The notes under the pieces were generated by a model. It was given only the letters and a program-made list of their open reading frames with translations, searched no databases and was not told the DNA's origin. 64,000 nucleotides of DNA. Origin: Rhodospirillales bacterium. Lineage in GTDB: Bacteria > Pseudomonadota > Alphaproteobacteria > Rhodospirillales > Casp-alpha2. This document shows, piece by piece, positions 507 to 36,860 of this stretch. Position numbers and translations under genes: made by a program. Each line of letters opens with the position of its first letter. The stretch's first letter is position 1. The stretch lies in NCBI GenBank assembly GCA_017640505.1, contig JAEPQO010000001.1, forward strand, positions 1,690,625 to 1,754,624, written 5' to 3'.

Positions 507-1625
507 GTGAGTAGGATTCTGGCATCTGTTTTCCGGTATTTGGCCATAATTCTTGGCTCAATTACGGTCGGATATGCTTGTTATCTCGTATACGACTTGA
601 ACGTCCAGCCGCTACGAGATGACTTCAAGTACGACTCCATTGATATCGACAACCCACGTTTCATCGCCAACGATCAAAGCGGTTACGAAAACCGCCCAAA
701 TATCATGATGGAGTTGGTTTCTACGGCCAGTATTGACGGTGAGACCTTCAACATACGGACACCGGTCCGACATGCCGGTGATGGCGCCCGTATCCCGATG
801 AGCGGGCCGCTCGACGCCGCGAGTGAAGTTAAAGTCGTCGCAGTCGGTGGTTCGCAGACGTGGGGGCAGGGGGTTAAGGCCGAGCAGACATTTTCATCCG
901 TTTTTGCATCCCATCTCAGTATACCCAACCGCAATTATGGCGTGTCTGGGAGTGGTGGCGCGAGTTCATATTTTATTTTGAAACAGAAACTTGCAAAAAT
1001 TTCACCGAAATATGTGCTGTACGGTTTTTGGGAAGATCACATGAACCGTAACTTAAGGTACTGCGCGAATAATAAGTTTCCCGTTTGCTCACCCCTCGCC
1101 TATGTATCCGGTACGCGCGAAAATGATTTCGTCCTGAACCCAGCCAAGAACTCGCAAGTACTTATTGAAGATCTTGGGGATTTTTTCAGGGATATGCAGC
1201 GTCGGCCATCTCTCATCGGCCTGCCAAAGGATATGTATTGGACGCACCGGCGCCTTCTGCGGCAATTGGATGAGGCGATCAATCCGCTCGCGTACGACAA
1301 AGCGCCGGTTGAGCGAAAAATAGCGGCATCTCAGTTCGTATTGAAGAACATGGCCGAGCTGACCCGTAAGGCAGGTGCCAGTTTAATCGTTGTTTACATT
1401 CCACTTTATTTTTCCGACACCATCGAGGCGGCGAATTCTGTATTCTTGAAAACCGCGAAGGAAAATAAGTTTGTGTTTGTCGACACAACGGAGGTCCTTC
1501 GGGATATGAAAGAAAAAAACGTTCCCGTCTTTATCGAAGGGGATGGGCACCTATCGGTTTCAGCCCATCGTGCAATTGCCAAAGAAATACTCTCACGGGT
1601 AGGAAGATCGGGGTCGGGCCGATGA
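507..1625 (+). CDS. Membrane-anchored SGNH/GDSL-type hydrolase
   Basis: The 372-residue protein starts at GTG 507. Residues about 7-28 form one hydrophobic N-terminal segment (signal anchor), placing the rest in the periplasm. The nucleophile motif appears as VAVGGSQTWG (Ser about 116, a GGS form of GDS). The C-terminal catalytic Asp-His block is seen as GDGHLSVSAH near residue 350. Such proteins in polysaccharide loci usually add or remove acyl groups on sugars; that role is inferred from context. It overlaps the next gene by four bases (ATGA at 1622-1625), so the two are probably translationally coupled. Confidence 0.75.
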   Translation: MSRILASVFRYLAIILGSITVGYACYLVYDLNVQPLRDDFKYDSIDIDNPRFIANDQSGYENRPNIMMELVSTASIDGETFNIRTPVRHAGDGARIPMSGPLDAASEVKVVAVGGSQTWGQGVKAEQTFSSVFASHLSIPNRNYGVSGSGGASSYFILKQKLAKISPKYVLYGFWEDHMNRNLRYCANNKFPVCSPLAYVSGTRENDFVLNPAKNSQVLIEDLGDFFRDMQRRPSLIGLPKDMYWTHRRLLRQLDEAINPLAYDKAPVERKIAASQFVLKNMAELTRKAGASLIVVYIPLYFSDTIEAANSVFLKTAKENKFVFVDTTEVLRDMKEKNVPVFIEGDGHLSVSAHRAIAKEILSRVGRSGSGR

Positions 1626-2977
1626 TCGAGAACAAACCCTTTTATCTACTGGTTGTGTTCTGGGGGGAACAGCACCGGCGTCTATTCTTGGATTTGGCGC
1701 TGTCGTCACTGTTGGCGGATCAGAATATACCGGCCCTTAACAATTCGGTTCGCAAAAACCGACTTTTGATCGCTACGACCAAAGAGGATTGGGACGCTCT
1801 GAAAGGTGATCCGATTTTCCGGAAAGCGGAACGTGTAATCACGCCTGAATTCATCGAGCTCCTCTATCAGAATGATGCCGATAACAAGATGCTCAAGATG
1901 TCGGCGGGGCACAAAGCTCTGACTGATCGGGCGTTTCGCGACGATGCTTGGGGCGTCCATCTTTGCCCGGATGTGATTTACTCGAATGGTTCGATGAAAT
2001 CCGTTCGCGTACAGGCGGAACTGGGTGCGCATGTCGTACTGACGGCCGCGGTTCGATTTGAATATGAAGGCGTTATAGCAACGCTTAAATCTCGCGGACT
2101 GGAAGGAATGTGCCCGTTAAGCCTCAGCGGACGCGAAGCCGTTGATATTGCCTTAAAGCATCCGCATGGAGAATTTAAAGCTGCCAGTTGGGATAGCCCG
2201 TTTTTTTGGGAGTTTCCGGTTTACACCTCTTGGACGGTACCCGGTGAAAATGGGGTTGTTCAGCACACATATAGTTGGTCGCCTATTTTGTTGGACTACG
2301 CGGCATTGACCGATCACTCGGATGATATTTTCGATAAATGGACGCTCGACGGCGATTACGTTTACCAAAATTTCCCGGAACTAACGTCGGAACTTCATGT
2401 GGTCACGGACTCCGATGAGGTGTTTCTATTGCCCGTAACGCCGGCTGCTGAGGCGTGCCCGCCACAAGACCCGCATTGGAGCAAGAGACTTCCGGGATTT
2501 CGAACTTGGACGCGCGCACATTTCATAAACATGGTGCATAACCACGATGTCATGGACCCGTTGAAGAGGCGAATTTTCTTCAAGCCCGTTAGGTGGCATG
2601 CAGAACCGATCAATAGAAATTGGGAAGCTGTTGAGGCTCGCGTTCGTCATTTCCTACTCAAATATATCCAGTCGGAAGAAGCGGACCAAGAGCGCCGAAA
2701 AGATATGTTGATCGAGAATCCAGCAATGACTGACGAACAAGCAACATATAACGCCCGAATTCGACATCGAATTATCGGCGCGCGGCTCACGCTTGGATGG
2801 ATCATGCGGATGTTGCCGGTTTGGATGGTCTATGCACTTTATTATGGGCCCAAGTACGGGCTGTCGCTGAGCCGTGACTACCTTCGTGTGATCGGGCTTG
2901 CGCTCAGCGGAGATAGGACGGAGTGGGAGCGTATTCAAAAACGCATTAGATGGCTTATTGCCCGCGCCGGGCTGTGA
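1622..2977 (+). CDS. Uncharacterised protein of polysaccharide locus, glycosyltransferase-like
   Basis: A 451-residue protein that I do not recognise as a named family. The N-terminus (FYLLVVFWGEQHRRLF, then LLIATTKEDWDAL) has the beta-strand/helix rhythm of a GT-A-like nucleotide-sugar domain. WGVHLCPDVIYSNGSM near residue 115 could be an acidic metal site, but no clear DXD is present. The C-terminus has a hydrophobic stretch (ILLWIMRMLP-type region near residue 390) and a basic tail. It is coupled by an ATGA overlap to the SGNH gene upstream, so a role in the same glycan modification is likely. The glycosyltransferase idea is weak. Confidence 0.6.
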   Translation: MIENKPFYLLVVFWGEQHRRLFLDLALSSLLADQNIPALNNSVRKNRLLIATTKEDWDALKGDPIFRKAERVITPEFIELLYQNDADNKMLKMSAGHKALTDRAFRDDAWGVHLCPDVIYSNGSMKSVRVQAELGAHVVLTAAVRFEYEGVIATLKSRGLEGMCPLSLSGREAVDIALKHPHGEFKAASWDSPFFWEFPVYTSWTVPGENGVVQHTYSWSPILLDYAALTDHSDDIFDKWTLDGDYVYQNFPELTSELHVVTDSDEVFLLPVTPAAEACPPQDPHWSKRLPGFRTWTRAHFINMVHNHDVMDPLKRRIFFKPVRWHAEPINRNWEAVEARVRHFLLKYIQSEEADQERRKDMLIENPAMTDEQATYNARIRHRIIGARLTLGWIMRMLPVWMVYALYYGPKYGLSLSRDYLRVIGLALSGDRTEWERIQKRIRWLIARAGL

Positions 2978-2989
2978 AAAATTAGGTGA

Positions 2990-3766
2990 TTATCTAGCGC
3001 AATATAGAGCGCAACCGGGGCACTTACCTACTTTGCGCAGAACTTCTTGGCATTGGTCCGATCCGAGCAACGAGTCCATTTTGAAATTATGTTCTTTCAA
3101 GTCACCCATTATCAAATGGGGAACGTTGCCGACGGCCGAGAGGCGACAAGCTTCAACGATTCCGTTTGATCGGATAATCGCTGACTGGACCCCGGCGAGA
3201 CATCGCGGCACTTCCTTTAGTAAATTGCGCACGCCGTATCCCTCGACGCCGCCGTTGATAATCTCCACTTGTATGTTTTTTTCCAGCAACTCCCCGGCCA
3301 CGACATGAGGATACGTCTCGGTGCCGAGTCCAAAAGTAACGGAGTCTCCCAACATCAAAACTCGCGGAAACTTCTCCAGGTCCCTCAGAGCCTCCCCCCG
3401 AAACCCGCTCTGGTTGACGGTTATCCCACTTACGCTTCTTCCCGTTTCATTTTGATCCGCGCTAAAAGCTTGCGCACCGAGTTCCTTTCCTTGCGCCTTT
3501 TTAAGTTCTGCCACGGCCGAACGGTCGGCGCTATACCCAGGCCTCAACACCCAATGAAATGCGTCTCCAGGGACTGCCATTTCATAAGGATCCAGCCTAT
3601 TGCTCAAATTTAAAAGGTCGCCAACATGAAAGAAATTAGCTATGTCTTCGCGTGTCTGGTAAATGACCTGAGAGAAGAGTTCCAACGTCGCAAAAATTAT
3701 CACCACAGTAAAAACCAGCGCAGATAATCTCAGTTTCAGGGTGGTGGGCTTTTTGTTAGAGGTCAT
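2990..3766 (-). CDS. Chimeric ORF: SGNH hydrolase N-half fused to radical SAM C-terminus
   Basis: Two unrelated halves sit in one frame. The start is placed at ATG 3766 (an in-frame ATG lies at 3784). Codons from 3766 down to 3203 encode a signal anchor (ALVFTVVIIFATLELFSQVI), the nucleophile block VLMLGDSVTFG and block III NGGVEGYG of an SGNH hydrolase. The frame should then continue to a GWND motif and a C-terminal Asp-His block. Instead, from 3202 to 2990 it reads CLAGVQSAIIRSNGIVEAC and ends GKCPGCALYCAR, a Cys-rich tail typical of radical SAM/SPASM-like proteins. The missing SGNH half is found in frame at 13401-14024 on the other strand. The product is probably non-functional as a hydrolase. 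Confidence 0.85.
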   Translation of the reverse strand: MTSNKKPTTLKLRLSALVFTVVIIFATLELFSQVIYQTREDIANFFHVGDLLNLSNRLDPYEMAVPGDAFHWVLRPGYSADRSAVAELKKAQGKELGAQAFSADQNETGRSVSGITVNQSGFRGEALRDLEKFPRVLMLGDSVTFGLGTETYPHVVAGELLEKNIQVEIINGGVEGYGVRNLLKEVPRCLAGVQSAIIRSNGIVEACRLSAVGNVPHLIMGDLKEHNFKMDSLLGSDQCQEVLRKVGKCPGCALYCAR

Positions 3767-4056
3767 TTTTCTCACAGAACACATAGTAGACGATACGTGG
3801 CGGCACGGCAGGACTTAGTGCCGTCAAAAGCGTGAAATTAGTTAGATCATTACGGCCAATAAAACTAGGTTTGAACTGCACATCCACTCGTTCAGATACT
3901 CAAAATATCAATTTAAAAAATCAATTCTGTGCACTTATCGAGGAATCAGCGTTTGAAATGTCGGATTCGAAGTTCAAAATGGTGGATGCATGCCTACTGA
4001 TCGAATTTCGCGCTGGACGCATCCGTGCATCTTAACTGAAAGGTCTGGTTTAGGCT

Positions 4057-5016
4057 GTGGCGCTTCTATCCGTAATTATGCCGATATACAATCATGGGCA
4101 TCTCTTAAATCGTGCCGTGACTGCAATTGTTGCGCAAAGCTTGAGACCGGATGAATTGTTTCTCATCGATGACGGGTCAACGGATGAAACGGCGGAGATA
4201 ATCAAAGATCTGGCCGATCTATATTCGTTCATCACGCCAATTTTTTTAGCTGAAAATATCGGTGCCGAAGCGGCCATAAAACATGTGTGGGATCAAGTCA
4301 CCGGTGAGTATATCTACTTCGCGGCGGCTGACGACGTCGTCTGCGGGGATTTTTTTTCAACATCAACGTCCTTGCTTGAAAACCACCCGGAAATCTCTTT
4401 TTGCACCGCGCTTACGGATGAAATAACAGAGACAATTCCGCCACTATCGTCGCCATCGCCGAAAATAATCACGCCGCAACAAGCCGCAGAAATGATCTGC
4501 CAGCACGGCACATGGTTTCGTTGCAACACGGCTATTTACCGGACGAAGCCGCTCAAAAGCCTTGGTGGAATCGATCCCGATCTCGGTCCGTTCGGCGATG
4601 GTTTTATATGCATGCATCTTGCCGTCAAAACAGGATGCGCCTTTGTCCCCGAGGTCTATTGTAAGGTGAATGTCGACCACGCGAGCACGTCGCGGGTATT
4701 TAATGAAAATCCGATGGCTCTCGTAGCAATTTTTAGAAAAGCCGAAAATAAAATGATCGACGAACTGCGTTCGGTTTTCCCGGCGGATGTGATCGACGCC
4801 TGGGGGCGTCAATGGCGACTGACTCTCGCTAAAAGGTTGCTTCAAACTACGGCCAAGGACTGGGACGGTTGCTCCCGCGTTCTGATACCGCCCTTGAACC
4901 AGCTTGATATCTATGTTTTGCGACTGTTGGCGCAGATCTCGAAGCGTGCAAGCAACGCCTACCTGCTTCTAAGACTTATTCCGTCCCAATTTTTTCAAAG
5001 AGTTTTTCGGCACTAA
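4057..5016 (+). CDS. Glycosyltransferase family 2
   Basis: A 319-residue GT-A enzyme starting at GTG 4057. The N-terminal signature LLSVIMPIYNHGHLL is followed by FLIDDGSTDETAEII (the nucleotide-binding D-D-G-S motif). The metal-binding region reads YIYFAAADDVV around residue 90. No membrane segments are obvious, so it should act at the cytoplasmic face, moving a sugar from a nucleotide donor onto a lipid-linked or protein acceptor. It lies inside the putative inverted segment, divergent from the chimeric SGNH gene with about 290 bases of AT-rich DNA between. The donor sugar cannot be told. Confidence 0.88.
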   Translation: MALLSVIMPIYNHGHLLNRAVTAIVAQSLRPDELFLIDDGSTDETAEIIKDLADLYSFITPIFLAENIGAEAAIKHVWDQVTGEYIYFAAADDVVCGDFFSTSTSLLENHPEISFCTALTDEITETIPPLSSPSPKIITPQQAAEMICQHGTWFRCNTAIYRTKPLKSLGGIDPDLGPFGDGFICMHLAVKTGCAFVPEVYCKVNVDHASTSRVFNENPMALVAIFRKAENKMIDELRSVFPADVIDAWGRQWRLTLAKRLLQTTAKDWDGCSRVLIPPLNQLDIYVLRLLAQISKRASNAYLLLRLIPSQFFQRVFRH

Positions 5017-5097
5017 CCGAAATCAATCCTTCCGACATTGACACCGCTCGCAACTGATTTTTTTTAACGTTATCGGCAAAACTGTTAGTCGAGACGC

Positions 5098-6435
5098 TCA
5101 GTTAGTATTTACATATGTGTGCATGTACGTGTAGCAGTCCGGATTGTGCAAATTTAGCGGTGGTTTAGTGCAAAATATATTCATCAACGCTTCTTCTCCA
5201 TTGGCATAGGTGAATTTATGAAATGCGCCTGTCAACGGTAAGTGAAACGGCGGAGTGACGCCATCGTAGCCCGATCGTGTTAAAGCGTCCATCAAGTACA
5301 AATCGGATCGGTACATGCGGGACTCTATGTAGCTGTCGATCACGTAGTCGACCATCTTCCGAAATTCTTCTGGAACATTCGACAACTTGTGCGTCGAATT
5401 TCGAATATTTCGGGTGATAGGCTTACCTTCGCCGACGACCTCGTCAAAATGTTTGGTTGTATACTGAGAATAATCATGTTCCTCGCCCATGATCTGCCGA
5501 GTAATAACCTTTGCCATGGCCCGGGAATAGAACTCTCCTCCCCGGTCTGAATAATGATAATCGTGAGGGATGTTAAACCAGGTTTGTGCTGCAACTATTG
5601 GATCTGGCAGATCGAGATGTTCCCGCATATCGAAGATGTCGATCTCCGGCACAAGCGCTTTTAGTTGGTTTGTCTTGGCCAGTATTTTATCCATGTCTTC
5701 AATATGGGGTCGATCCGGCATTACCGTTGCGAAGGTTTTGACCTCATCATTCAATTTTCTCAAATGCTCGGCTGCGTATTGCACCATTTCGTCAGGGTCC
5801 GTCATTTGCGGCCCTACCTTACGAGGAAAATCCAACTCCAGATAATTAACAACATTCAAATCTGGAGAAAAATGCCGACCCGTCTGATCGTATTCCCTCC
5901 AGAAGGTTTGAAACCCTCCACCTACCCAACCATGGTTGAGTACACGAACACGTTTGACCTTTAGAAAGTCCAAGAACTCGTGGTTCTTGTTCAGAAGTTG
6001 CTCAAGCGTATCAACCCATTGGTATGTGGCCGTAACGGTGCCCGTGAAGGACTCGCCAAGCATTGCAATGCGATATTCCGGTGTATCGGGGTCCCTTTCA
6101 AAGCTGTAATCACTCTCCGACAGAAGACCTGCATTGTTTGTGCGCACAGAGAAATTCCGAACACCAACATCTTCATTCAATGAAATAACTGAAATATCGA
6201 TCTTTGTATTTGTTCGAAACAATCCATATGGGTGGGATGAGACTTCGCGCTTGAAAGTCTTATCGATTACAGAGCTAGCTGGATCAAGAGTATGGTTCTG
6301 TATCCAAATTTTCGCGCTTTCAAAGTGCCTCTCTACCTTGAAAGGCATGGCTAGCCGAGCGTATAACTCGTAACCCGCTGCTCCACATATTACGCATACG
6401 ATCAATACCAGCCCGTATGCGCTCAAAATTTTCAT
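5098..6435 (-). CDS. SGNH-type hydrolase, paralogue 1 of 3, with C-terminal Cys motif
   Basis: A 445-residue protein with a signal anchor at residues about 5-25. Before the nucleophile it has the shared segment VRTNNAGLLSESDYSFERD. The nucleophile block is AMLGESFTG (Ser about 129, Glu replacing Asp of GDS). A WVGGGFQTFW block and WFNIPHDYHYSDRGG (catalytic Asp/His region) follow. After the SGNH core comes an extra domain of about 130 residues ending in FCTKPPLNLHNPDCY, with a Cys-x11-Cys-Tyr pattern that recurs in the two neighbouring paralogues. Likely an envelope esterase or acyltransferase on the polysaccharide; the substrate is unknown. Confidence 0.75.
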   Translation of the reverse strand: MKILSAYGLVLIVCVICGAAGYELYARLAMPFKVERHFESAKIWIQNHTLDPASSVIDKTFKREVSSHPYGLFRTNTKIDISVISLNEDVGVRNFSVRTNNAGLLSESDYSFERDPDTPEYRIAMLGESFTGTVTATYQWVDTLEQLLNKNHEFLDFLKVKRVRVLNHGWVGGGFQTFWREYDQTGRHFSPDLNVVNYLELDFPRKVGPQMTDPDEMVQYAAEHLRKLNDEVKTFATVMPDRPHIEDMDKILAKTNQLKALVPEIDIFDMREHLDLPDPIVAAQTWFNIPHDYHYSDRGGEFYSRAMAKVITRQIMGEEHDYSQYTTKHFDEVVGEGKPITRNIRNSTHKLSNVPEEFRKMVDYVIDSYIESRMYRSDLYLMDALTRSGYDGVTPPFHLPLTGAFHKFTYANGEEALMNIFCTKPPLNLHNPDCYTYMHTYVNTN

Positions 6436-6598
6436 TCTCTAACTCCTACAAATCTCCGCCGCTTTCAAAAATAAACCTCAAAGAACAAATGTATCGAAAA
6501 CACCGTAGGCCATGCAGCGGGACGCACACCTATTAAGACTTGCCTGACTGGCATGTAGCATATTCAGGGTATTTGATGTGATTTCTGGAATGCTTCGA

Positions 6599-8023
6599 TC
6601 AATTTACTGCAAGTTCCGAAATATCATCATCGGCATTTCCAACATATATGATGTAGCCGTGATAGCATGATGGAGAGCTTAGCTTGTATCCTTTTCGATC
6701 GCCCTTGATACAAGTCATCTGAAGAAAGCCTTTCTGCGCGGGTATCGTCCCGAGATCCAGTTCATGAAAAGCCCTCTCCAACTCTGCGTTGGGGGGGATA
6801 TTCGTATACAGAATATCCTCCCCAAGTAGCTTCTTGATCCCGTACAGTTCCCAATTCAGTTCTTTCCCTTTGATATACTCCTGCGTAATCGCATTCCGCA
6901 AAGCCTGCATATCCTTAATTTTAAATGTCCAGCCGCCGACCTTTAATTCTTCCGCACCATAGAGTCCTAGCACGCTCTCATATAGATCGAATCTCTCTTG
7001 CTCGACCGCCAAAACGCCGGGAAAAACAAGCTCCACGCCGAATTCTCTCTCCGCGATGAGACGCGCCATTTCGCGAGCGTATATTGTGCCTCCACGGACA
7101 GACATGTGGCCGTCCCATGGCAGGTTGTACCAGGACTTCAGACTCTCTTTATCCCACTGCTGCCAAGGCAACTGCTCTCGCATGAAATAAAATTCATTTA
7201 TGTCGGTTAGTTCCTTCAGACGTTTCGACAACGTGTACGGATAAATATCCGGATGCATATCTTGATAAAGCGGCATCACGGTTACGATGAAACGTACGTC
7301 TTCATTCTTCAGCTTATCCACATGCTCCACGGCTTGTGCCAGCATCCTGTCAATATCGCGTAACTGCCCCATTGCAGCGGACGTATTCGTTCTCGGAAAG
7401 TCCGAGCGGATGTAGTTCAAAATAACGGTGTCGGGGTCGAACTTTCTTCCGACTTGATCGTAAAGCCGCCAGAAACTGGGGAAGCCCGCGCCTGGGATGC
7501 CCACATTATAAATCTTGACGATTTTATCGGTTCCCAACTGCGGGTGGATTTCCGGGTCGTTGAGGATGTCTTCGACCAAATCGACCCAGTGCCGATTTGC
7601 GGTGGTCCCACCGGTCATCGAGTCGCCAAGCATGACGATACGGTGTTCCGGCGTACTTGCAGACCGCTCAATGGTGTAGCTTTTGTCCGACAATAAACCG
7701 ACATTGTTTGTCGACGCGGAAGCGTAAAATACGACTTTGCCATCTCGATCAACGAATAACGTATCGATGTTGGTATTGATTTTCAGCGGCCCAACATCAC
7801 TGTTTTTGCGCGTTTTATCCCATCCGAAATACTTTTCCATCGGGCTTAAGCGAACACCCAAGTTTAACGGTTCATTTCGGAAAAAAATCGGCGTGGCATT
7901 GGCTTCATAATGCTCGCGGAGATCAGATCGAACCTTATACTCGAACATTCCATAGCCGCCGACCACCGCCAACAACGATAAAAAAAGTGCGACTACGATA
8001 TTATAAAAATTCTTGTTTCTCAT
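6599..8023 (-). CDS. SGNH-type hydrolase, paralogue 2 of 3, with C-terminal Cys motif
   Basis: A 474-residue paralogue of the flanking genes. A hydrophobic anchor lies at residues about 8-25. The pre-catalytic segment reads STNNVGLLSDKSYTIER. The nucleophile block VMLGDSMTGGTT (Ser about 135) is the classical GDS form, followed by VGIPGAGFPSFWRLYDQ and WYNLPWDGHMSVRGG. The C-terminal extension ends with TCIKGDRKGYKLSSPSCYH, a Cys-x14-Cys-Tyr variant of the paralogue motif. It is transcribed in the same direction as paralogue 1, with 163 bases between them. A role in polysaccharide decoration is inferred from the locus. Confidence 0.75.
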   Translation of the reverse strand: MRNKNFYNIVVALFLSLLAVVGGYGMFEYKVRSDLREHYEANATPIFFRNEPLNLGVRLSPMEKYFGWDKTRKNSDVGPLKINTNIDTLFVDRDGKVVFYASASTNNVGLLSDKSYTIERSASTPEHRIVMLGDSMTGGTTANRHWVDLVEDILNDPEIHPQLGTDKIVKIYNVGIPGAGFPSFWRLYDQVGRKFDPDTVILNYIRSDFPRTNTSAAMGQLRDIDRMLAQAVEHVDKLKNEDVRFIVTVMPLYQDMHPDIYPYTLSKRLKELTDINEFYFMREQLPWQQWDKESLKSWYNLPWDGHMSVRGGTIYAREMARLIAEREFGVELVFPGVLAVEQERFDLYESVLGLYGAEELKVGGWTFKIKDMQALRNAITQEYIKGKELNWELYGIKKLLGEDILYTNIPPNAELERAFHELDLGTIPAQKGFLQMTCIKGDRKGYKLSSPSCYHGYIIYVGNADDDISELAVN

Positions 8024-8370
8024 TTCGGCTCCTCAGGATTTGCCGATGAATTTAAAGGCTTTGATATGACCACCGTCCTATTTACATATCGTCGGCATTG
8101 ATGCCTGCAAAACATAATTTCATTCCGATTGAGTCATTTCTGTCGCGCATCCTCTACGATTTAAAAAACCGATAGATTGATGCATGAGCATCGAACAATC
8201 ACTCCCCGCATTGGCAAACCACGCTCTCTCTCCGCCGGCGGCCACCGCTCGCTTGAATGACCAAAGGTCCATGCATTACCATCCAGCCTGACCACTGGCG
8301 TCAGGTTCATGCGCCCTTCAACCATCCTTTTGTTATGCATAGCGGCAATTGATCAAGGGTTTAATTTTAC
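8024..8370. other. Intergenic region between divergent SGNH paralogues
   Basis: 347 bases without a convincing gene, between two divergently transcribed paralogues, so it should carry promoters for both. A short hairpin (cctgac at 8287-8292 with gtcagg at 8300-8305) is the only structure I notice. No confident -10/-35 pair can be named. Confidence 0.5.
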
Positions 8371-9705
8371 ATGCTTAGCAAGTTTAAGATTTATTCGATC
8401 ATCACCGTTCTGTCGGTGGTCGCGGGCTTAATTAGTTATGAAATTTATTTTCGGATTGATCTAGCTCTTCAGCTATCCAATAGAACGGACACGTCATTCT
8501 TATGGCTCCAGAATAAGAACATCACGCCAACCAGAGTGGATGAAGTCTTCGGCCTTAGCTACAAGATGCATGAGAGGGGTCTGTTCAAGGTCGATGAAAC
8601 CATTGAGATTTCGGTCGTAAAAGATCAGACGGATCATCGAAATTTCTCGATAAGAACGAACAACGTCGGGCTTTTCTCAGATCTCGATTACACGTTTGAG
8701 CGTGATCCGGAGAACCCTGAATACAGGATCGTCGTGGTTGGCGACTCCTTCACCGCACCGACAACGTCGACCTATCAATGGGTGGATACAGTTCAGGAAA
8801 TCCTGAACCAATCCAGCGAACTCCGGGAAGCGGTCGGCGGCAAAACATTCAGGCTTTATAACGTCGGCATTATCGGTGCGGGTTTCAATTCGTTCTTGAG
8901 GACATTTAGAACATCGGGTCAACACTTCGATCCGGATTTGACCGTCGTGAATTTTATCGAGATCGATTTCGAGCGCACTGGCAAGGAAGTTCTCATGACG
9001 ATCCCCGATAAGGTGGAGAATGCGGCGAACTATATGGAACAAATCTATGCGCTGACCGACAATGTCCTGCTGACGCTTCTGCCGACTTACAACGATATCA
9101 TTCCTAAGCCGGTCGATTACGAGCTCACCAAAGCGTTTGCCGCGAAATCGCCGCGGTATTCGACTGTCATTATGCGCGATCTCATGCCGATTGATCGCGG
9201 CCAGGAAGAGGTCACGTCGTGGTATAACATTCCATACGACGCACATCTCTCCGATCGCGGTGGCGAGATTTTCGCGCGGGCATTCGCGCAAGTTATTGCG
9301 AATAGAATTACCGGCGAGACTTACGATTTCTCCAATGTCGAAACCAAATATTCCCGCTTCGTCTTAGGCCCCGGCAAACCGAATACACGTCCGGTCGAGA
9401 CGGGCCTAGGATTCATTTCCAAAAGCCAAGAGAAAATTGACCGTATACGTTCTTACATCAAGAGAAATGAGTTTTGGACGAAAGTGTTTCGCCTGGAGCC
9501 ATACATATGGTCGACCCTGCAAGATGTGCCCATCGACGGGATTAACATCCCCTATCGAAAAAAGATCACATCAGGGTTCGTCGAAGTACCTTATGGCGAT
9601 GGCAAGAAAGACGTCGCGTTTCTCTTTTTATCGTGCACCGAAATGCCGATGAAAATCGATAACCCTAACTGCTATCATCATCACCACTTGTTCATCCCGC
9701 ATTAA
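8371..9705 (+). CDS. SGNH-type hydrolase, paralogue 3 of 3, with C-terminal Cys motif
   Basis: A 444-residue protein closest in layout to paralogue 1. A signal anchor lies at residues about 7-25. It has FSIRTNNVGLFSDLDYTFERD before VVVGDSFTAPTTSTYQWVD (Ser about 126), then VGIIGAGFNSFLRTF and WYNIPYDAHLSDRGGEIFAR for the Asp/His region. The C-terminal extension ends SCTEMPMKIDNPNCYHHHH, the same Cys-x11-Cys-Tyr pattern as paralogue 1. It is on the opposite strand from the other two and convergent with the ABC exporter genes. Three divergent copies in tandem suggest different positional specificities on one glycan; that is inference. Confidence 0.75.
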   Translation: MLSKFKIYSIITVLSVVAGLISYEIYFRIDLALQLSNRTDTSFLWLQNKNITPTRVDEVFGLSYKMHERGLFKVDETIEISVVKDQTDHRNFSIRTNNVGLFSDLDYTFERDPENPEYRIVVVGDSFTAPTTSTYQWVDTVQEILNQSSELREAVGGKTFRLYNVGIIGAGFNSFLRTFRTSGQHFDPDLTVVNFIEIDFERTGKEVLMTIPDKVENAANYMEQIYALTDNVLLTLLPTYNDIIPKPVDYELTKAFAAKSPRYSTVIMRDLMPIDRGQEEVTSWYNIPYDAHLSDRGGEIFARAFAQVIANRITGETYDFSNVETKYSRFVLGPGKPNTRPVETGLGFISKSQEKIDRIRSYIKRNEFWTKVFRLEPYIWSTLQDVPIDGINIPYRKKITSGFVEVPYGDGKKDVAFLFLSCTEMPMKIDNPNCYHHHHLFIPH

Positions 9706-9731
9706 GTCAAGAACCTGGCACCGCCGCAGCG

Positions 9732-10496
9732 CTACGCCGCAGATGGTTTTTGCGACTCTTTATAAAACTCGATGACTTCGTCGACGTCACCGAACATTTC
9801 AATCTTTCCTGCCGACATGAAGATTGCTTTATCGCAAAGAGATTTGATCAAGTCATTGGAATGCGATGCGAGCACGATAATCGAAGCGCGGTTAAGAAGC
9901 TCGGCCATCCGCTTCTTCGCTTTTTCGGCAAACCGGGCGTCACCGGCTCCCAATCCTTCGTCGAGAAGCAGGATTTCCGGATGGATTGCGGTCGCAACGG
10001 CGAAAGCCAATCTGACAACCATGCCGGAAGAATACGTTCGAACCGGCAGGCTCAAATAATCCCCGAGCTCAGTGAACTCTTCGATGTCCGGCATAATACC
10101 GGATATTTGCTTTCGAGACATGCCGAGATAAAGGCCGCAGTTATATACGTTGTCATACCCGGTATCTTCCATGTCCATGCCGATGCCCGGCGCAAAGAGC
10201 GCCGACACCTTGCCCTCAACCGACATATGGCCGCTGACGGGCTCGAGGATTCCCGCCATTAACCTCAGCAGCGTCGATTTTCCGGCACCATTGGGGCCAA
10301 TCAATCCGACGCGCTCTCCATTTTTGATATCAACGGAAATATTGTCCAACGCCTTAACAGTGATCCGCCGATGATCGGATGAGCTCCTTTGGATCAACCC
10401 TCCGGCGGTCCGTTGCAATAGCGTCTGGCGAAAGCTTTTGCTTCCCCCGATTACCGGAAACTCGACACTCACATTCTCCAATCGCATTTCGGCCAT
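9732..10496 (-). CDS. ABC polysaccharide exporter ATP-binding subunit (Wzt/KpsT-like)
   Basis: A 254-residue ATPase; the start at ATG 10496 is chosen because it lies two bases after the permease stop. Walker A is GPNGAGKST, the signature region is VRTYSSGMVVRLAF (family-typical YSSGM) and Walker B is ILLLDEGLGAGD. The N-terminal MRLENVSVEFP and the absence of a C-terminal carbohydrate-binding domain match KpsT-type or short Wzt-type ATPases. It powers export of a finished polysaccharide across the inner membrane with the permease encoded just upstream. The frame is open further upstream into the permease gene, but that part is not conserved-looking. Confidence 0.9.
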   Translation of the reverse strand: MAEMRLENVSVEFPVIGGSKSFRQTLLQRTAGGLIQRSSSDHRRITVKALDNISVDIKNGERVGLIGPNGAGKSTLLRLMAGILEPVSGHMSVEGKVSALFAPGIGMDMEDTGYDNVYNCGLYLGMSRKQISGIMPDIEEFTELGDYLSLPVRTYSSGMVVRLAFAVATAIHPEILLLDEGLGAGDARFAEKAKKRMAELLNRASIIVLASHSNDLIKSLCDKAIFMSAGKIEMFGDVDEVIEFYKESQKPSAA

Positions 10497-10498
10497 AG

Positions 10499-11347
10499 CT
10501 ACACCCAATAAATCACTCTGTGGCGAAATTTCGTGAACATGTACAATGCCAATGCCCACCCCAACAGAGTTAAGGACAAACTTACGCTCCAGTTCAATGC
10601 GGAGGGGGCATGTCCGAGCAGAGGTTCCCGAACAATCGACAGGAAATGATACAACGGATTGCTATCGACGATCAGTGGCTTCAAGTCGCCTACTTGCTCC
10701 GGAGGCCAAAAGACCGGGGTGACCAACATCATAATCTGCAAGAAACTGCCGATAAGAGGCTGCACATCGCGAAAGCGCGCACATAGAATCCCGAGAACAA
10801 GGCCAACCCAGACGCCGTTTAAAAGTACGATGAACAATCCGGGAATCAGAAACAGGCTGTTTAGCGTCAGATCAACCGAGAAAATAATCGCAACAATCAG
10901 GCAAACTATAAGGTTGTGCCCAAAGACAATAAAATTGCGCCAAACACATTGCAGGGCAAAGACCGTTTTCGGGAATGCAAACTGCTTTAGAACCCCTTGG
11001 TTTGCCGAGTATATACCGCACCCCTCGGTCATAAGCGCCGAGATAAAGAGCCAGGTCGTGACTCCCGTGCTCAGGAACGGCAGAAAGGTCTTGAGATCCG
11101 TTCCCCAGAGATTCGAAAAAACGAACCCCACAGCGATCACGAACACAGCGAGATTTAATGCCGACCAGAACGGCCCCAAAACGGTTCGAGCATACCGGCG
11201 ACGAATTTCATGCCAGCCGAGCCTTGCCCACAACTCCCATTGCATTAGGCCCTGGTAGATATCTCTAAGTGCTCTTGAGAACATAATTCGCTGGATTACC
11301 TTTTCCAGAATTCGATCTTTACGGATGAAGTGGCGCAAACTTTTCAA
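10499..11347 (-). CDS. ABC-2 type polysaccharide exporter permease (Wzm/KpsM-like)
   Basis: A 282-residue membrane protein. The cytoplasmic N-terminus WELWARLGWHEIRRRYAR is characteristic of ABC-2 polysaccharide exporters. It is followed by about six hydrophobic segments (AVFVIAVGFVFSNLWG, TWLFISALM, IVCLIVAIIFSV, LFIVLLNGVWVGLVLGI and others). The conserved end FTKFRHRVIYWV is also family-like. It forms a pair with the ATPase downstream (stop 10499-10501, next ATG 10496). No polymer-modifying terminal transferase is fused to it. An internal Met near residue 23 is an alternative start. Confidence 0.9.
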   Translation of the reverse strand: MKSLRHFIRKDRILEKVIQRIMFSRALRDIYQGLMQWELWARLGWHEIRRRYARTVLGPFWSALNLAVFVIAVGFVFSNLWGTDLKTFLPFLSTGVTTWLFISALMTEGCGIYSANQGVLKQFAFPKTVFALQCVWRNFIVFGHNLIVCLIVAIIFSVDLTLNSLFLIPGLFIVLLNGVWVGLVLGILCARFRDVQPLIGSFLQIMMLVTPVFWPPEQVGDLKPLIVDSNPLYHFLSIVREPLLGHAPSALNWSVSLSLTLLGWALALYMFTKFRHRVIYWV

Positions 11348-11368
11348 GAATAAATTCAGAATGTCGTT

Positions 11369-12310
11369 TCAAAGTTCCCACTTGAAGCGATCCGCCAATG
11401 TATGACCGATTATTTCAGCACATCTTTTCTTCTGCCTCTCTGTCAAGACGCCCACCCACTCATCTTTCTGGCCACTTCGGAAATTATTATCGATATGTTT
11501 TGCTGGCTCGGCTAAATCGTTGGCCGCATTTTCAATTCCGTAGAAGTCAAAAATGCGCTGAAAAAATGCCTGTTTATCTACGAGGAAGTCCTCGTACGTT
11601 GTCAATAAAATAGGCAAGTTCTTATTTTTCTCGGCTACATGTAGCCAATCGTTAATCCAGTTCACACACGAAGCAAGGTGCGTTTCAATGTGCCAATCGA
11701 TTCGCTCAGGATTTGAGAGGTCACCGTAGCCCGGCGGCGCCTGATGAACGGTATAGTTTATACCGTCTGGGTGTAGTTGCTGGAGACGGTCAAAGTGATG
11801 AAACCATGACAGAGTTGCCTGTCGTGGATCACGAACATGAACCACCAACTTATCTACAAACCTAGTGATCAAGTTGATGTTTAGGGCTGATGCATCAAAA
11901 TGCTCTTGCCGTATAATATTGCCTAACCGCAATCTCTGCGCTGCTGAATCAATCAAAAAATAGGTAGGGAAAAAACCGTGAAACATTGGCTGCTCGGAAT
12001 ACTCAATATCGATGCTTTGCGCTAACGTCTTACCAATGAATACACTGCCGGATTTCGGAAGCGTGTTAAAAAGTATGGGCGCAACTTTCGTTTCACGCGA
12101 CACAAACTCATGCTGTCGTGCATTAACTTCTTTCAGCTGACTTATTTCCCGCTCTTTTGCGGCGATGTATTCTTCAAATTGGCGTCTAAGCGCAGGAACC
12201 CGCGTACCCTCGCGGTAAACGTCGATGTACGGCGTCAGTCCAGTTACCCTAGCTATTGCACCTAAAATATTCAAGCGGCCCCCTAAAAGTTCTGAAACGC
12301 TATCTCGCAC
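11369..12310 (-). CDS. Sulfotransferase-family protein
   Basis: A 313-residue protein. The PAPS 5'-phosphosulfate loop is recognisable in LFNTLPKSGSVFIGKTL, and the 3'-phosphate binding region in LVVHVRDPRQATLSWFHHF. The last third carries helices rich in aromatic residues, as in carbohydrate sulfotransferases. No membrane segment is visible; residues 40-60 look like a short coiled coil (FEEYIAAKEREISQLKEVN). It lies 22 bases upstream-to-downstream of the exporter pair on the same strand, so sulfation of the exported glycan is the simplest reading. The acceptor is unknown. Confidence 0.8.
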   Translation of the reverse strand: MRDSVSELLGGRLNILGAIARVTGLTPYIDVYREGTRVPALRRQFEEYIAAKEREISQLKEVNARQHEFVSRETKVAPILFNTLPKSGSVFIGKTLAQSIDIEYSEQPMFHGFFPTYFLIDSAAQRLRLGNIIRQEHFDASALNINLITRFVDKLVVHVRDPRQATLSWFHHFDRLQQLHPDGINYTVHQAPPGYGDLSNPERIDWHIETHLASCVNWINDWLHVAEKNKNLPILLTTYEDFLVDKQAFFQRIFDFYGIENAANDLAEPAKHIDNNFRSGQKDEWVGVLTERQKKRCAEIIGHTLADRFKWEL

Positions 12311-12479
12311 TCTCCGCCTGATCAGTCAAACATAGATTGCTCAAGCGCCACCCAGCGTCAAGAAGTACATGTTTCCACGCATGAACTGCTCTGTTACATT
12401 TGATGAGTTTATACACGGCTCTGAGATCGTCTAAAGATGTTTGATATGCGCAGTCCAATCCAGCACCAGTTCGCGACAC

Positions 12480-14024
12480 ATGTTTGAATATTTTTATCAA
12501 AAGTTTGCTAAACCCCGCGATCAATCCGGGCTGGCAGATGGCTTCAACCACAAGCAAAGGTTCAAGGAATGGGCGCGTTCTCAGCGTGCTGGTGCCGATT
12601 CAATCAAAGCGGACTTAGAAAACGCCTCGCCCGATCAGTTGATGAACTTAGCCCACATCCTTGCGGGATTATGCGAATTCGATGATGCTCAGATATACGT
12701 CGAACTCGCTCTTGATCGCGCGGAGGCCTCTAACGAACCTACGACAACCGCCTTTACTTTATACGTTACGGAACTTTGCAATCTCCGATGTCAGCATTGC
12801 TTTATCTATGATGATATTGCGGAACCGTTTCTTAAACGAAGCGACGAAATGACCGTGAATGAAATAGTCCGCATCGTTGATGGTCTCCGCTTGAACGAGA
12901 CCAACCGTCATCTTTTTTTGACGGGAGGCGAGGTTTTTGCCCGAAAAGACTTTGAAGAGATTGTCGAGGGTATTTCAAACCTCGATGTCAAATTTAGCTT
13001 CGGAACGAATGGTATGTTTCCCGAACGCCTGGAGAAAATTTTAACAACGCCCAAGTTACTAAAACCGATTGCAGGCATACAATTTTCCCTGGATGGGGCG
13101 AGAACTGGCCACGAGAATGTCCGAGGGAAAGGTACTTTTGATCCGCTGATGAAGAGCATGAAGATCGTCAAGCAACATGGCCTCCCCTTGAATGCATGCA
13201 CCGTCATTCAAGATGGGAATGATGGCGAGGTAGCGGAAGTCCAAACATTGATTAGAGAACTCGGTGTCGACAATCACCGATTCCAACTCTTCTCAAAAGC
13301 AGATCAATTGATGACCAAAGATATCAGTCGGTTTGAAAACGTCATCGAAGAACGAGAATTTTATCAGGCGACCGTAAGTCCCTCCGTTCCAGGCAAAGGA
13401 TACCGTGATTTGTCGCCAAAGGTAGTAACGGTGATGATCGGCTGGAACGATATATACGACGAAAACCTGCTAGATGAACTGCAGGAACTGCCGATAAAAA
13501 CGGGGTGGCTGCTGCGCGAAGCATGGCGTGCCGCGATGCGCTTGAGCGAAAAAGATCGCAGCCGCGCAATCGAACTCTACCAGCGCCAAAAAACGCCGGA
13601 CCGGCACGCCGCCGTTCTGGAAAAAGTGCGAAGTTTCGAGCCGAGATTTTTGGATGAGGTGATCACGCTTATAGACAAATTGCAGGCCATGGGTGCGCGT
13701 GTCGCCCTGATCACGCTGCCAGGTCTCTATTCGGCGGAGGTCGAACCGGATGCCACGGCATTGGCGATCGGTCACTTGCCCGCGTACACAGCTAACCCGT
13801 TCGTCCTTGCAGAATTGACGGCTCGCTACAACGCGGCGCTCAGGGAGATAGCGGAACGTCCGGACGTTTATCTATTTGATGCTGCTGAATGGAGCCGAGA
13901 AGCCCTATCGCCGCGCCGCGAGTATTTTCTGGACTCCGTCCATTTGAACGAAAGGGGGCTGCGAAAATTGGGCGTCTTTTTCGCGGAACGACTTCAGCAA
14001 TCCGGTGCGCTGGATTTTCGTTGA
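12480..14024 (+). CDS. Chimeric ORF: radical SAM N-half fused to SGNH hydrolase C-half
   Basis: The start is placed at ATG 12480 (frame open from TTG 12441). Residues 1-307 form a radical SAM core with the cluster motif ELCNLRCQHCF (Cys-x3-Cys-x2-Cys), then FLTGGEVFARKDF and FSLDGARTGHENVRGKG. After 13400 the protein changes identity. PKVVTVMIGWND is an SGNH block III/IV element, and the end has AEWSREALSPRREYFLDSVH and LNERG, the C-terminal catalytic Asp-His block of an SGNH hydrolase. The radical SAM C-terminal cysteines expected here are instead found in frame at 3202-2990 on the other strand. Neither half is complete, so function is doubtful. Confidence 0.85.
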   Translation: MFEYFYQKFAKPRDQSGLADGFNHKQRFKEWARSQRAGADSIKADLENASPDQLMNLAHILAGLCEFDDAQIYVELALDRAEASNEPTTTAFTLYVTELCNLRCQHCFIYDDIAEPFLKRSDEMTVNEIVRIVDGLRLNETNRHLFLTGGEVFARKDFEEIVEGISNLDVKFSFGTNGMFPERLEKILTTPKLLKPIAGIQFSLDGARTGHENVRGKGTFDPLMKSMKIVKQHGLPLNACTVIQDGNDGEVAEVQTLIRELGVDNHRFQLFSKADQLMTKDISRFENVIEEREFYQATVSPSVPGKGYRDLSPKVVTVMIGWNDIYDENLLDELQELPIKTGWLLREAWRAAMRLSEKDRSRAIELYQRQKTPDRHAAVLEKVRSFEPRFLDEVITLIDKLQAMGARVALITLPGLYSAEVEPDATALAIGHLPAYTANPFVLAELTARYNAALREIAERPDVYLFDAAEWSREALSPRREYFLDSVHLNERGLRKLGVFFAERLQQSGALDFR

Positions 14025-14220
14025 TATCGCCCCGCGCCGATCCGCGCCAGAGGCATGGAAACTCATTTAGGATGTTTCAAAACTGAATTGAAACAAGCAT
14101 ATTTACCAACGGGCGATGTCGCGACGAAGCTAGTGAGACACTAGGCTGTGCCGAATTCATGATGCCGAAGTCAGGACGTCCCCTCTCATTCAGAAGAATT
14201 TGTCGAATCGATAGAGCCAT

Positions 14221-17010
14221 ATGAACGCCGAAAACCGCTCCTTGGTGCTGACCCAATACCCGATGTTGCGCGACCAGCGCTTGGATTTTGAGCGTCAGGT
14301 AGATCATCATGTCGATTACGTGGTCGTCTCGACCTTTATGCCCCATGGTCACTTCGGACTGGTGAAGTATTTGCGGAAACTGAAACGCCCGCGGGTCTAC
14401 ATCATGCTTGGCGAAGATGTCGCAATGCCGATGTTTCCGATTCTGAGTATCCTCTCGTTGTGGATCGATACCGGAACCCGTTACGTGGTCAATCCTGACA
14501 TGTCCGTTGTTGAAGTAAAATCATCGGATGTTGGTCGGTGCACACTATCACTCGCCCGTGCTGTTCTTGCCGGCCTATGCAATTTGGTGGTGACGGGGTT
14601 TCAGGCTCTTTCTCTTAATTATGCAACTCGTGTCCGTGTCAACACGGATACAATCACGGACAAAGTTGCGTACTTGCGCACCAATCTGTGGCTTGGCGTG
14701 CAAGCTGGAGGCGCCCTGTCGCATGCACGCGGTATTATTTTGGCGGCATTATCACGTGGCCGAGAAGTTTTTGTGCTTGCCCCGGACAACAAAGGTGTAG
14801 GGGCGCACGATGGCTATCATCTTGAGCGCGTTCTTCCAGATCATGCTTATATTGTCCCTCGTGAACTAAATCACTTTTCGTACAATAGATACTTCGTGGC
14901 GCGAGCGGCGGCATGTCTCGTCGACTTCAAAGGAATGATCTACCAACGAACCTCTCTAGGGAGTTTGGCGGGCGTTCTTCTATCGCGGCGTTACAAGCTT
15001 CCTCTCGTGCTGGAATACAATGGGTCAGAAATTTGGATGGCGCATAACTGGGGAACGCCGTTCATGTTTGGGGGGGTGATCCGTCTAATCGAGAACGTAA
15101 GCCTCCGGCAGGCACACGCAGTGGTGACGGTATCTGGTCCGTTACGCGACGACCTGGTGTCAAAGGGCGTGAACCCGGACCGGATTATTATGCTGCCAAA
15201 CGGGGTGGATCCGGCGGAGTTCGATCCAACGCAGTTTTCACAGGAAGAATTAGATGAATTGCGCGCCCTTCACGGTATTCCCTCGGACGCAGTTTTGGTG
15301 ACGTTTGTCGGCACATTTGGTCCTTGGCACGGGGTGGAAGTTCTTGCGGAGGCTGCATATGAAATGTCGAAGGCGCCGAGTGCCGAACAGAAGTGGCATT
15401 TTATGTTTATTGGAGACGGCGCTAGCCGGCCGACGGTAGAACGCATCACAAGCGAGCTTGTCTCGAATGGAACGGTTACTCTCACGGGGCTGGTGGCGCA
15501 ATCCGAGGTTGCGAAATACCTGGCGGCTTCGGACGTTCTCGTTTCTCCTATGGTCACGAACCCGGACAAGTCACCGTTTTTCGGCTCTCCCACGAAGCTC
15601 TTCGAATACATGGCGGCAGCGCGCCCTGTGATTGCCAGCCGAATTGGGCAAGTCGCTGAAATCTGCAGCGACTGCAGGACCGTTTCGCAAATTGCCGAAG
15701 GAAGTCCGTCGGTTGGTAGTAAAGATGAGTTTGGCATCACGATTGAGCCTGGAAATGTCGAACAGCTTGTTACGGCGATCCAATTTGCCGGGCGAAATCG
15801 CGAATGGCGTATGCAAGCCGGGGGCAATGCCCGTCGCGTTGTGACCGAGCGCTATACCTGGGAGAAGCATTATGAGGCTATTGAGCGGGGCGCAGACGGA
15901 ATTGTCCGGCGAACTCGCGTGCTCGTTAATGCGCTGCATTCTCGAAGTGGCGGCGGCATTACCTATTTGGCCAATATTCTTCCACGTCTAGCGGCAATTA
16001 AAGACTTGGATTTGCACGTCATATTGCATACGGACCAAATGCCGACATTTTCCGAGGTGCTTGATGGTGTTACGGTGCATGAAGTCAATTTTAAAAGTTC
16101 ATTCTGGCGCTTGATGACTTTTGAGCAACTGTCGGTGCCTCGAATCGAACGGGCGATTGACGCGGATGTCGTTTACTCTCCTGCAAACTACGGTCCGATC
16201 TTTTGCCGCAACAGCGTTCTTCTGCTTCGTAATGCTCTAAGTGTCGTTTTTGTCGAGCGCCGCCCTGCAAAACTATTGTATTGGGCAGCGCTGTTCGCCG
16301 GGACGGCGATGTCAGTGATGCGCGCAAAGGCGATCGTCTCCGTATCAGAATATTCGAAGCGGTCCGCCGCCGGTGGCGTGTTGCGCATGATTTCCAAAGA
16401 TATTGCGATTATTCCCCATGGGGTCAACAAGGTCTTTTCTCCAGGCCCGGTCGACGAAAGAGACGACGACGAATTGCTGGCAGTTTCGGATTTGTACCTA
16501 CAGAAAAATCTGCACTCGCTGTTGATTGCTCTCAGTAAATTAGCGCCACGTTTCCCGTCATTGAAGCTGTCGATCGCAGGCGCACCGCTCGACGCGGCAT
16601 ATGCCAATCGCTTGAAAAGTATGACGGAAAAACTTGGACTCTCATCTAAGGTTCGCTTCCTGGGATCTGTGCAAGCTGACGAACTTTCAAAACTGTACCG
16701 AAAATGCACAGTCTTCGTTTTCCCCTCAACAGTCGAAACATTTGGAAACCCGTTGGTTGAGGCGATGGCTTGCGGCTGTGCTGTGGCAACGTCCAGGACC
16801 GCAGCGATGCCAGAAATCGCAGGTGACGCGGCGAATTACTTCGACCCAAATGATGTCGATGATATGGTCGACGTAATTGCCAATTTGATGTCGGATCGTG
16901 AAGCTCGACAGCAACTCGGCGAGCGCGCAAAAATGAGAGCGCAACGCTATAGCTGGGACAGAAATGCCGAAGAACTCTTCCGTATTTTTGACCGCTTGAA
17001 TCGTAGCTAG
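14221..17010 (+). CDS. Two-domain GT4 glycosyltransferase fusion
   Basis: A 929-residue protein with two glycosyltransferase family 4 modules in one frame. The first (about residues 160-555) has a GT-B C-terminal domain with IIMLPNGVDPAEFDP, then FVGTFGPWHGVEVLAEAA and SPTKLFEYMAAARPVIAS (E-x7-E-like). The second begins near residue 561 (RTRVLVNALHSRSGGGITYL) and contains IIPHGVNKVFSP and ETFGNPLVEAMACGCAVATS. The first 150 residues are a separate region with hydrophobic helices. Two consecutive sugars could be added by one polypeptide. Upstream is a 196-base gap after the chimeric gene; downstream is the ligase-like gene. Confidence 0.88.
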   Translation: MNAENRSLVLTQYPMLRDQRLDFERQVDHHVDYVVVSTFMPHGHFGLVKYLRKLKRPRVYIMLGEDVAMPMFPILSILSLWIDTGTRYVVNPDMSVVEVKSSDVGRCTLSLARAVLAGLCNLVVTGFQALSLNYATRVRVNTDTITDKVAYLRTNLWLGVQAGGALSHARGIILAALSRGREVFVLAPDNKGVGAHDGYHLERVLPDHAYIVPRELNHFSYNRYFVARAAACLVDFKGMIYQRTSLGSLAGVLLSRRYKLPLVLEYNGSEIWMAHNWGTPFMFGGVIRLIENVSLRQAHAVVTVSGPLRDDLVSKGVNPDRIIMLPNGVDPAEFDPTQFSQEELDELRALHGIPSDAVLVTFVGTFGPWHGVEVLAEAAYEMSKAPSAEQKWHFMFIGDGASRPTVERITSELVSNGTVTLTGLVAQSEVAKYLAASDVLVSPMVTNPDKSPFFGSPTKLFEYMAAARPVIASRIGQVAEICSDCRTVSQIAEGSPSVGSKDEFGITIEPGNVEQLVTAIQFAGRNREWRMQAGGNARRVVTERYTWEKHYEAIERGADGIVRRTRVLVNALHSRSGGGITYLANILPRLAAIKDLDLHVILHTDQMPTFSEVLDGVTVHEVNFKSSFWRLMTFEQLSVPRIERAIDADVVYSPANYGPIFCRNSVLLLRNALSVVFVERRPAKLLYWAALFAGTAMSVMRAKAIVSVSEYSKRSAAGGVLRMISKDIAIIPHGVNKVFSPGPVDERDDDELLAVSDLYLQKNLHSLLIALSKLAPRFPSLKLSIAGAPLDAAYANRLKSMTEKLGLSSKVRFLGSVQADELSKLYRKCTVFVFPSTVETFGNPLVEAMACGCAVATSRTAAMPEIAGDAANYFDPNDVDDMVDVIANLMSDREARQQLGERAKMRAQRYSWDRNAEELFRIFDRLNRS

Positions 17011-17036
17011 TTCCTGCAAATGGCAGATGCGAAAGC

Positions 17037-35732: not shown

Positions 35733-36860
35733 ATGACGTCGAAATACATCAATGTGATTGAACTGGACGACAGCGGCAGCACCTGCGTGGTGTCGTCCGG
35801 CCTCGTGCCGCTGCCCGGCGGCGCGATGCCGAACCTGCTGATCAACGGGAACTTCAGCGTCGCGCAGCGGGGCACGTCATTCGATTCAACGACCTCGCCG
35901 GCCAATGACGACGACACGTACCTGCTGGACCGGTGGGTGTTGCTGAGCGACGGCGACGATATCGTCGACGTCGATCAAGTCGAAACGGCATCGGACTTGC
36001 CGACCGGCGCCGCTGCGGCGATCAAGTACACGTGGGAAACCGCGAACAAGCAGGCGGGACTTCTGCAGATTATCGAGGGGATCAATGCCCGTCCGGCGAT
36101 CGGCGGTACTGTCAGCCTGAGTTTTCAGGCCAAGGGGAGTGGGCTCGAAAACCTTCGGGCGGCCGTTCTTTCGTGGGACAGTGCCGAAGACAGCGTGACC
36201 AGCGATGTCGTCGCGACCTGGGCCGGGGACGGCACCAACCCGACGTTCGCGACGAACTGGACGGCGGAGAATACACCGAGCGACTTGGCACTTTCGACGA
36301 GCTGGCAGACGTTCACCATTGAAGGTGTCGATATCGACACGTCGAGCATGACCAATGTCGCCGTCTTTATCTGGCTCGACGATACCGACGTGGCGGTGGA
36401 CGATACGCTCTTCGTCACCAACGTGAAACTGGAGGTCGGCGAGGCGGCGACGCCGTTCGTGCCGCGCTCGTACGGTGACGAGCTGGCGCTGTGCCAACGG
36501 TACTTCGTGAAAACGTTTCGGCAGAATGTTGTGCCGGCGCAGAATACAAATGACTACAACGGGTCGTTACGGGTTTATGCGACGAGTTCGATGGAGCCTG
36601 TAACTGTCTGGAAGCTGCCTGTCAGTCTGCGGAAATCCCCAGCTGATACGGCGTCGGGATATCCGGCGTCGGATGAGGTTCAGTTGTATGCCGTAGATCA
36701 ATTTGCGACAGCAAACCAATGGTCGAGTACTGGCAACACACTTTCAAACGCACGTTCCATACAGAACAGCGAGATAGTTGTCGCATTTGACAATGGAGGT
36801 TCTGCAGCCACAGCTACGGCGCAGTGGTATATCCATGCGACGGTTGACGTCGAGCTTTGA
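35733..36860 (+). CDS. Phage tail-fibre-like / carbohydrate-binding protein
   Basis: A 375-residue protein with a ribosome site (ttaggaga) before ATG 35733. NLLINGNFSVAQRGTSFDST, then YLLDRWVLL, and later FVTNVKLEVGEAATPFVPRS followed by YGDELALCQRYF are a layout I know from tail-fibre or tail-associated proteins of phages and prophage remnants. The middle is a beta-rich jelly-roll-like domain. No signal peptide or membrane segment is seen. It is flanked by terminators on both sides and has no other phage genes nearby, so it is either a moron-like gene or a decayed prophage leftover. Confidence 0.7.
   Translation: MTSKYINVIELDDSGSTCVVSSGLVPLPGGAMPNLLINGNFSVAQRGTSFDSTTSPANDDDTYLLDRWVLLSDGDDIVDVDQVETASDLPTGAAAAIKYTWETANKQAGLLQIIEGINARPAIGGTVSLSFQAKGSGLENLRAAVLSWDSAEDSVTSDVVATWAGDGTNPTFATNWTAENTPSDLALSTSWQTFTIEGVDIDTSSMTNVAVFIWLDDTDVAVDDTLFVTNVKLEVGEAATPFVPRSYGDELALCQRYFVKTFRQNVVPAQNTNDYNGSLRVYATSSMEPVTVWKLPVSLRKSPADTASGYPASDEVQLYAVDQFATANQWSSTGNTLSNARSIQNSEIVVAFDNGGSAATATAQWYIHATVDVEL

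Follow-up and report, generated by a model that had tools for sequence, protein, structure and literature searches.

A stretch of 64,000 nucleotides from the genome of a Rhodospirillales bacterium, hereafter the window, carries two open reading frames (ORFs) on opposite strands, each combining part of an SGNH hydrolase with part of a radical SAM protein, and the best explanation, very probably the right one, is an illegitimate inversion of positions 3203–13400 by which a polysaccharide locus would have lost the function of both enzymes. Fusions created by inversion, and illegitimate inversion itself, are an already known kind of event; no matching case was among the papers listed for bacterial fusion genes and inversions, which is not proof that none is in print. 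The parts of the two ORFs and the junctions between them, in window coordinates, are as follows.

3203–13400, no strand: putative inverted segment, 10,198 bp, its ends uncertain within the shared GAT
3202–3204, minus: left junction, shared GAT, from the junction comparison
13399–13401, plus: right junction, shared GAT, from the junction comparison
3203–3784, minus: SGNH hydrolase N-half, with hydrophobic anchor, GDS (146–148), and NGGVEGYG; last residue R194
2990–3202, minus: radical SAM C-terminal tail, with six Cys; profile match 284–350 of 379
12480–13400, plus: radical SAM N-half, with CX3CX2C (100–107) and core; PF04055; profile 27–237
13401–14024, plus: SGNH hydrolase C-half, with GWND (321–324) and DSVH (485–488 of the ORF); PF13472; profile 196–397

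The minus-strand ORF (2990–3784, with ATG options at 3784 and 3766) consists of the SGNH N-half and the radical SAM tail, its motifs running from the hydrophobic anchor through GDS and NGGVEGYG to a Cys-rich end, and the plus-strand ORF (12480–14024) consists of the radical SAM core and the SGNH C-half, in the order CNLRCQHC, radical SAM core, GWND, and DSVH. Both are open, with no stop inside either chimaera. The minus-strand ORF has no match in Pfam; the plus-strand ORF matches Radical_SAM (PF04055) and, in part, Lipase_GDSL_2 (PF13472, profile positions 60–176 of 178), the latter with the last two thirds of the profile only. The original prediction, made from the letters alone, that the first ORF turns from SGNH hydrolase into radical SAM tail is borne out by profiles of both families, which match the respective parts, and the converse make-up claimed for the second is upheld by both Pfam domains together with both family profiles. 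When the set of catalytic blocks of SGNH hydrolases is used as a check, the blocks are found on separate chains, GDS and GYG in 2990–3784 and GWND and DSVH in 12480–14024. Likewise, the CX3CX2C core of the radical SAM enzyme is present at residues 100–107 of the plus-strand ORF, which has no Cys after residue 240, and the Cys-rich tail is not on the core's chain, sitting instead in the minus-strand ORF; with its six Cys, this tail would be auxiliary-cluster-like.

The SGNH parent is documented by its relatives. A search of 297 genomes of the order, the window's own included, with the SGNH C-half matched 11 at E 1e-6 or better, and eight of the 10 other genomes were examined, the two weakest (G001 and G056) being left aside. 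All eight carry the N-part, matched by the minus-strand ORF, together with the C-part, matched by the plus-strand ORF; the gene is intact in one open frame in six, and seven match nearly the whole C-half. That the rebuilt protein might never align over its full length elsewhere had been named as a refuting case, and for the SGNH hydrolase this is contradicted by relatives that align over both halves. A profile of seven relatives (G254 excluded, the gene of G051 entered as locus L047) is tiled by the two ORFs at model positions 16–199 and 196–397, with best stretches of 160.9 bits for the minus-strand ORF and 224.8 bits for the plus-strand ORF, and a profile of L047 alone is tiled at 15–172 and 169–369. 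Since none of 2000 shuffled controls reached E 0.1 with the seven-relative profile, the match of the two halves to it is beyond chance. In the alignment, the minus-strand ORF ends at an R column and the plus-strand ORF restarts, gap-free, at a Y column, and the residue pair at the junction reads RY in four of the seven aligned relatives. In wider searches, the C-half matched its own genome alone in a class sample of 385 genomes (E 1e-10) and nothing among plasmids, a scan of genome contigs with the plus-strand fusion returned no relative, and the SGNH alignment as a query of genome contigs returned three loci, L047 and the weaker L048 and L049.

Damaged SGNH copies occur in three of the nine genomes examined (the window, G051, and G254). 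In G051 (L047, 274–1401), a single in-frame TAA stands between the N- and C-parts, and in G254 (L090, 9305–10105), the middle of the gene is missing with the frame kept. The loss point in G254 lies within about a codon of the place of the inversion junction in the window's gene, and the corresponding point of the G261 gene carries a pair of direct repeats, GAGCGTTACAA and GAGCGTTATAA (ERY codons).

The radical SAM half is the weaker half of the case, as judged from sequence comparison, with a modest score for the tail and distant relatives only. Searches at E 1e-15 in 296 other genomes of the order and at E 1e-12 in 397 of the phylum matched five and nine genomes, respectively, at 17 places in total, none of them a close relative of the window's gene; identity to the core is 27–37%. 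A profile built without L018, L022, and L026, whose ORFs are unusually long, took in the other 14 of the 17 and is tiled by the plus-strand ORF at 27–237 and by the minus-strand tail at 284–350 of 379. The tail alone scores 17.0 bits and the whole minus-strand ORF 14.6 bits with this profile, and one of 2000 shuffled tails passed E 1, at 5.7 bits. In a BLAST comparison, the tail aligns with L024 at 27% identity over 77 residues, starting from Cys195, the first residue beyond the junction. A plasmid search with the radical SAM half found eight records, all below 60% identity, and among the 25 of 62 NCBIfam SPASM radical SAM subfamilies listed, no cut-off was reached, the best score being 71.3 bits against a cut-off of 400 (TIGR04250) and covering positions 7–169 of 358 only. 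Some SGNH relatives have an intact radical SAM gene nearby, but these genes are only distantly related or belong to different kinds (that of L087 resembles MoaA by eye) and were given no weight.

At the junctions, GAT is the sole run of identity of at least three bases in the 33 bases compared, and it stands in equal codon phase at both, as the original prediction had it; because no other run is shared, the segment 3203–13400 is exact to within a base or two. When the segment is turned round, the SGNH halves join without gaining or losing a residue compared with the aligned relatives, in keeping with the proposal that inversion restores the gene in frame. The two junctions are reciprocal, with matching breakpoints. 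The 200 bases around the left and right junctions have elsewhere in the genome only short, chance-level matches (best E 1.28 and 0.37, respectively), positions 2500–14500 contain no N, and the locus lies inside a 2.1-Mb contig.

The surroundings of the two ORFs bear on their former arrangement, and involve the following genes.

1622–2977, plus: orf1622, 451 residues, unmatched in Pfam and NCBIfam; relatives co-directional with Wzm/Wzt-like genes (G104, G170)
9732–11347, minus: Wzt-like (9732–10559) and Wzm-like (10499–11347) polysaccharide export ABC transporter, within the inversion
14221–17010, plus: two-domain GT4 glycosyltransferase; relatives directly after the SGNH gene in G261, G119, and G254
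17037–18248, plus: Wzy_C/O-antigen ligase-like protein, from domain search and neighbours in relatives

The SGNH gene lies directly upstream of a GT4 gene in three of the eight relatives (G261, G119, and G254), the GT4 proteins sharing 41–45% identity over more than 900 residues with that of 14221–17010, and a Wzy-like gene follows beyond it, on the other strand in G119. In G146, the GT4 relative is about 6 kb from the SGNH gene and on the opposite strand, and none occurs in the stretches fetched around the SGNH genes of G051, G153, G242, and G125. Because the C-half at 13401–14024 occupies the place that the gene takes in these three of eight relatives, it is the N-half that would have moved away. 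Relatives of orf1622 were matched in 10 of the 297 genomes, the window's own included, and of the 10 places matched outside the window's genome, three were inspected: Wzm/Wzt-like genes are co-directional with the orf1622 relative, preceding it in G104 and following it in G170, and none was seen beside the second copy in G104. In the window, Wzm and Wzt oppose orf1622, and undoing the inversion aligns them. Within the segment, six genes lie on the minus strand and three on the plus strand; outside it, the plus strand carries the main genes on the upstream side and, as far as about 23.7 kb, on the downstream side. Of the unswapped order, relatives show the two SGNH parts together in all eight cases, but none of the samples searched contained a genome in which the entire locus is uninverted. 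Seven congeners were compared; the locus is missing from all of them, and what they have in common with the window is at most the right flank (starting near 17.9 kb) and short matches.

Strand composition follows the same boundaries. GC skew is +0.074 to the left of the segment, −0.067 inside it, and +0.063 to the right (+0.067 for the flanks combined), so that the segment, turned round, matches its flanks; in a sliding test in 100-base steps, only one of 440 placements, the proposed segment itself, reached the observed contrast, and a free scan puts the edges at 3000–3200 and 12800. This evidence is not independent of the argument from gene orientation, because skew follows gene direction. 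In addition, third-codon G:C counts, a test chosen after the skews had been seen, separate the four halves along the lines of the parent genes (p 0.0008) but do not separate the present ORFs (p 0.54). The direction of the transporter genes in two relatives, the GC skew, and the third-codon composition all point to 3203–13400 as the inverted segment.

The ancestral state would have been a surface-polysaccharide locus with a whole SGNH gene directly upstream of GT4 and, next to orf1622, an equally whole radical SAM gene in the opposite direction. Two breaks, one in each gene, followed by crosswise rejoining, would have inverted 10.2 kb, and because the two genes pointed opposite ways and were broken at the same codon phase, a coincidence with a chance of one in three, both products became in-frame chimaeras. 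The joining step would have been Ku-independent end joining or template switching, a mechanism suggested by the three shared bases, the absence of a repeat, and the absence of a Ku match in the genome (the only match among 14 control genomes came from B. subtilis). Since neither chimaera has acquired a stop, the inversion probably happened recently.

Surface-polysaccharide loci are often phase-variable, and a programmed, reversible inversion that toggles the two enzymes could be imagined here, all the more as an imperfect inverted similarity of 12 of 15 bases (3194–3208 and 13403–13417) adjoins the junctions. This similarity, however, is shifted by eight bases from the in-phase junction and does not keep the codon phase; a crossover through it would not give whole parents and was rejected; there are 28 comparable (overlapping) 15-mer pairs between the two ORFs, and the motif has 17 matches in the window against 25 expected, which is not above chance and led to its rejection as a recombinase site. 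It occurs, with one mismatch, at three further places in the genome, and its position beside the junctions is possibly a matter of chance. Moreover, none of the 25 of 42 inverted-repeat pairs listed joins the two breakpoints, no recombinase was present among the ORFs scanned at 507–18248 or seen when the other ORFs of the window and 19.9 kb upstream (L055) were read by eye, and the single PF00239 recombinase of the genome sits on a different contig (C8). An invertible element is therefore very improbable, and the earlier claim of illegitimate rather than site-specific recombination is supported by the 3-bp homology and by the absence of a joining pair among the inverted repeats listed and of a recombinase among the nearby ORFs inspected.

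An assembly or library artefact, in which the contig misrepresents cells whose two genes are whole, is unlikely. An unbroken chimaera would look the same, and 3 bp of shared sequence fits a chimaeric molecule, but two joins with matching breakpoints, exactly reciprocal, would be needed, and both fall in genome-unique, N-free sequence inside the 2.1-Mb contig, whereas assemblers usually err at repeats. Because both junctions are reciprocal and in unique sequence, a real inversion is favoured over an assembly error, and it would be present in living cells. That the two fusions are old, conserved, functional proteins is scarcely credible: both frames are open, but the catalytic blocks are divided between two proteins, and the other family is absent from every relative examined, the radical SAM profile finding no match among the ORFs of the eight SGNH relatives (best −2.3 bits) and the SGNH profile none among the 17 radical SAM ORFs (best 0.6 bits, L019). 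An SGNH–radical SAM fusion elsewhere had been named as another refuting case, and none occurs in the samples searched.

Elements flipped by a recombinase, invertons, are usually much shorter than the 10.2-kb segment here. The inversion resembles invertons (PMC11892184) in affecting a cell-surface locus, and differs from them in that no inverted repeat and no nearby recombinase were seen. With the spontaneous illegitimate inversions of Salmonella, it has in common the short shared ends and a probable origin without a site-specific recombinase; in the portion of Sun et al. (2012, PMC3411829) drawn on here, five of seven tested inversions, which share 12–18 bp, were confirmed, and candidates sharing 7 and 9 bp went unconfirmed. 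Because the confirmed inversions had at least 12 bp, the 3 bp found here is unusually short, and both ends, unlike those in the cited portion, lie inside genes and in frame. In Helicobacter pylori, inversions by illegitimate recombination are said, in the cited part of PMC3046158, to contribute to new genes; there, as here, genes are altered by inversion without clear homology, and the present case differs in being one reciprocal half-swap between two unrelated genes.

Both enzymes have probably been lost. For the SGNH hydrolase, loss is indicated because the serine block and the Asn and Asp–His blocks are on separate proteins. The minus-strand ORF has a hydrophobic stretch at residues 23–41 (mean hydropathy 2.25), which would place the anchored N-half on the periplasmic side, and the plus-strand ORF has no comparable stretch (highest mean hydropathy 1.23); because the first protein is anchored and the second is not, the halves should not meet. 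For the radical SAM enzyme, loss is suggested since its core is separated from the Cys-rich tail. No close second copy was seen in the genome, in which the minus-strand ORF (E 1e-3), the SGNH C-half (E 1e-6), and the radical SAM core (E 1e-15) each give a single match. Four other SGNH-like ORFs of the locus (507–1625, 5098–6435, 6599–8023, and 8371–9705), which score at or below Pfam cut-offs, with no Pfam match for 5098–6435, may make the loss tolerable. An unlikely reading is that selection maintains the inversion, or even that it can revert: one inversion would remove two surface-polysaccharide-modifying enzymes together, and on this reading the repeated loss of the SGNH gene, by inversion in the window, a stop in G051, and a deletion in G254, could be an adaptive change of the surface, for example, against phages.

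Automatic annotation would give the two proteins names that are wrong end to end. The locus illustrates cleanly how an inversion with almost no homology yields two reciprocal in-frame fusions in a genome with no Ku gene detected, and shows that such an event can be established from one genome by combining gene neighbours in relatives, the composition of the strands, and profile matches divided between ORFs. Two further observations concern other parts of the window. Positions 5098–9705 hold three adjacent long SGNH-like proteins (445, 474, and 444 residues) without an NCBIfam match and with Pfam matches that are borderline at best, and a Pfam-unmatched ORF of 375 residues at 35733–36860 gives the impression of a phage tail or carbohydrate-binding protein.
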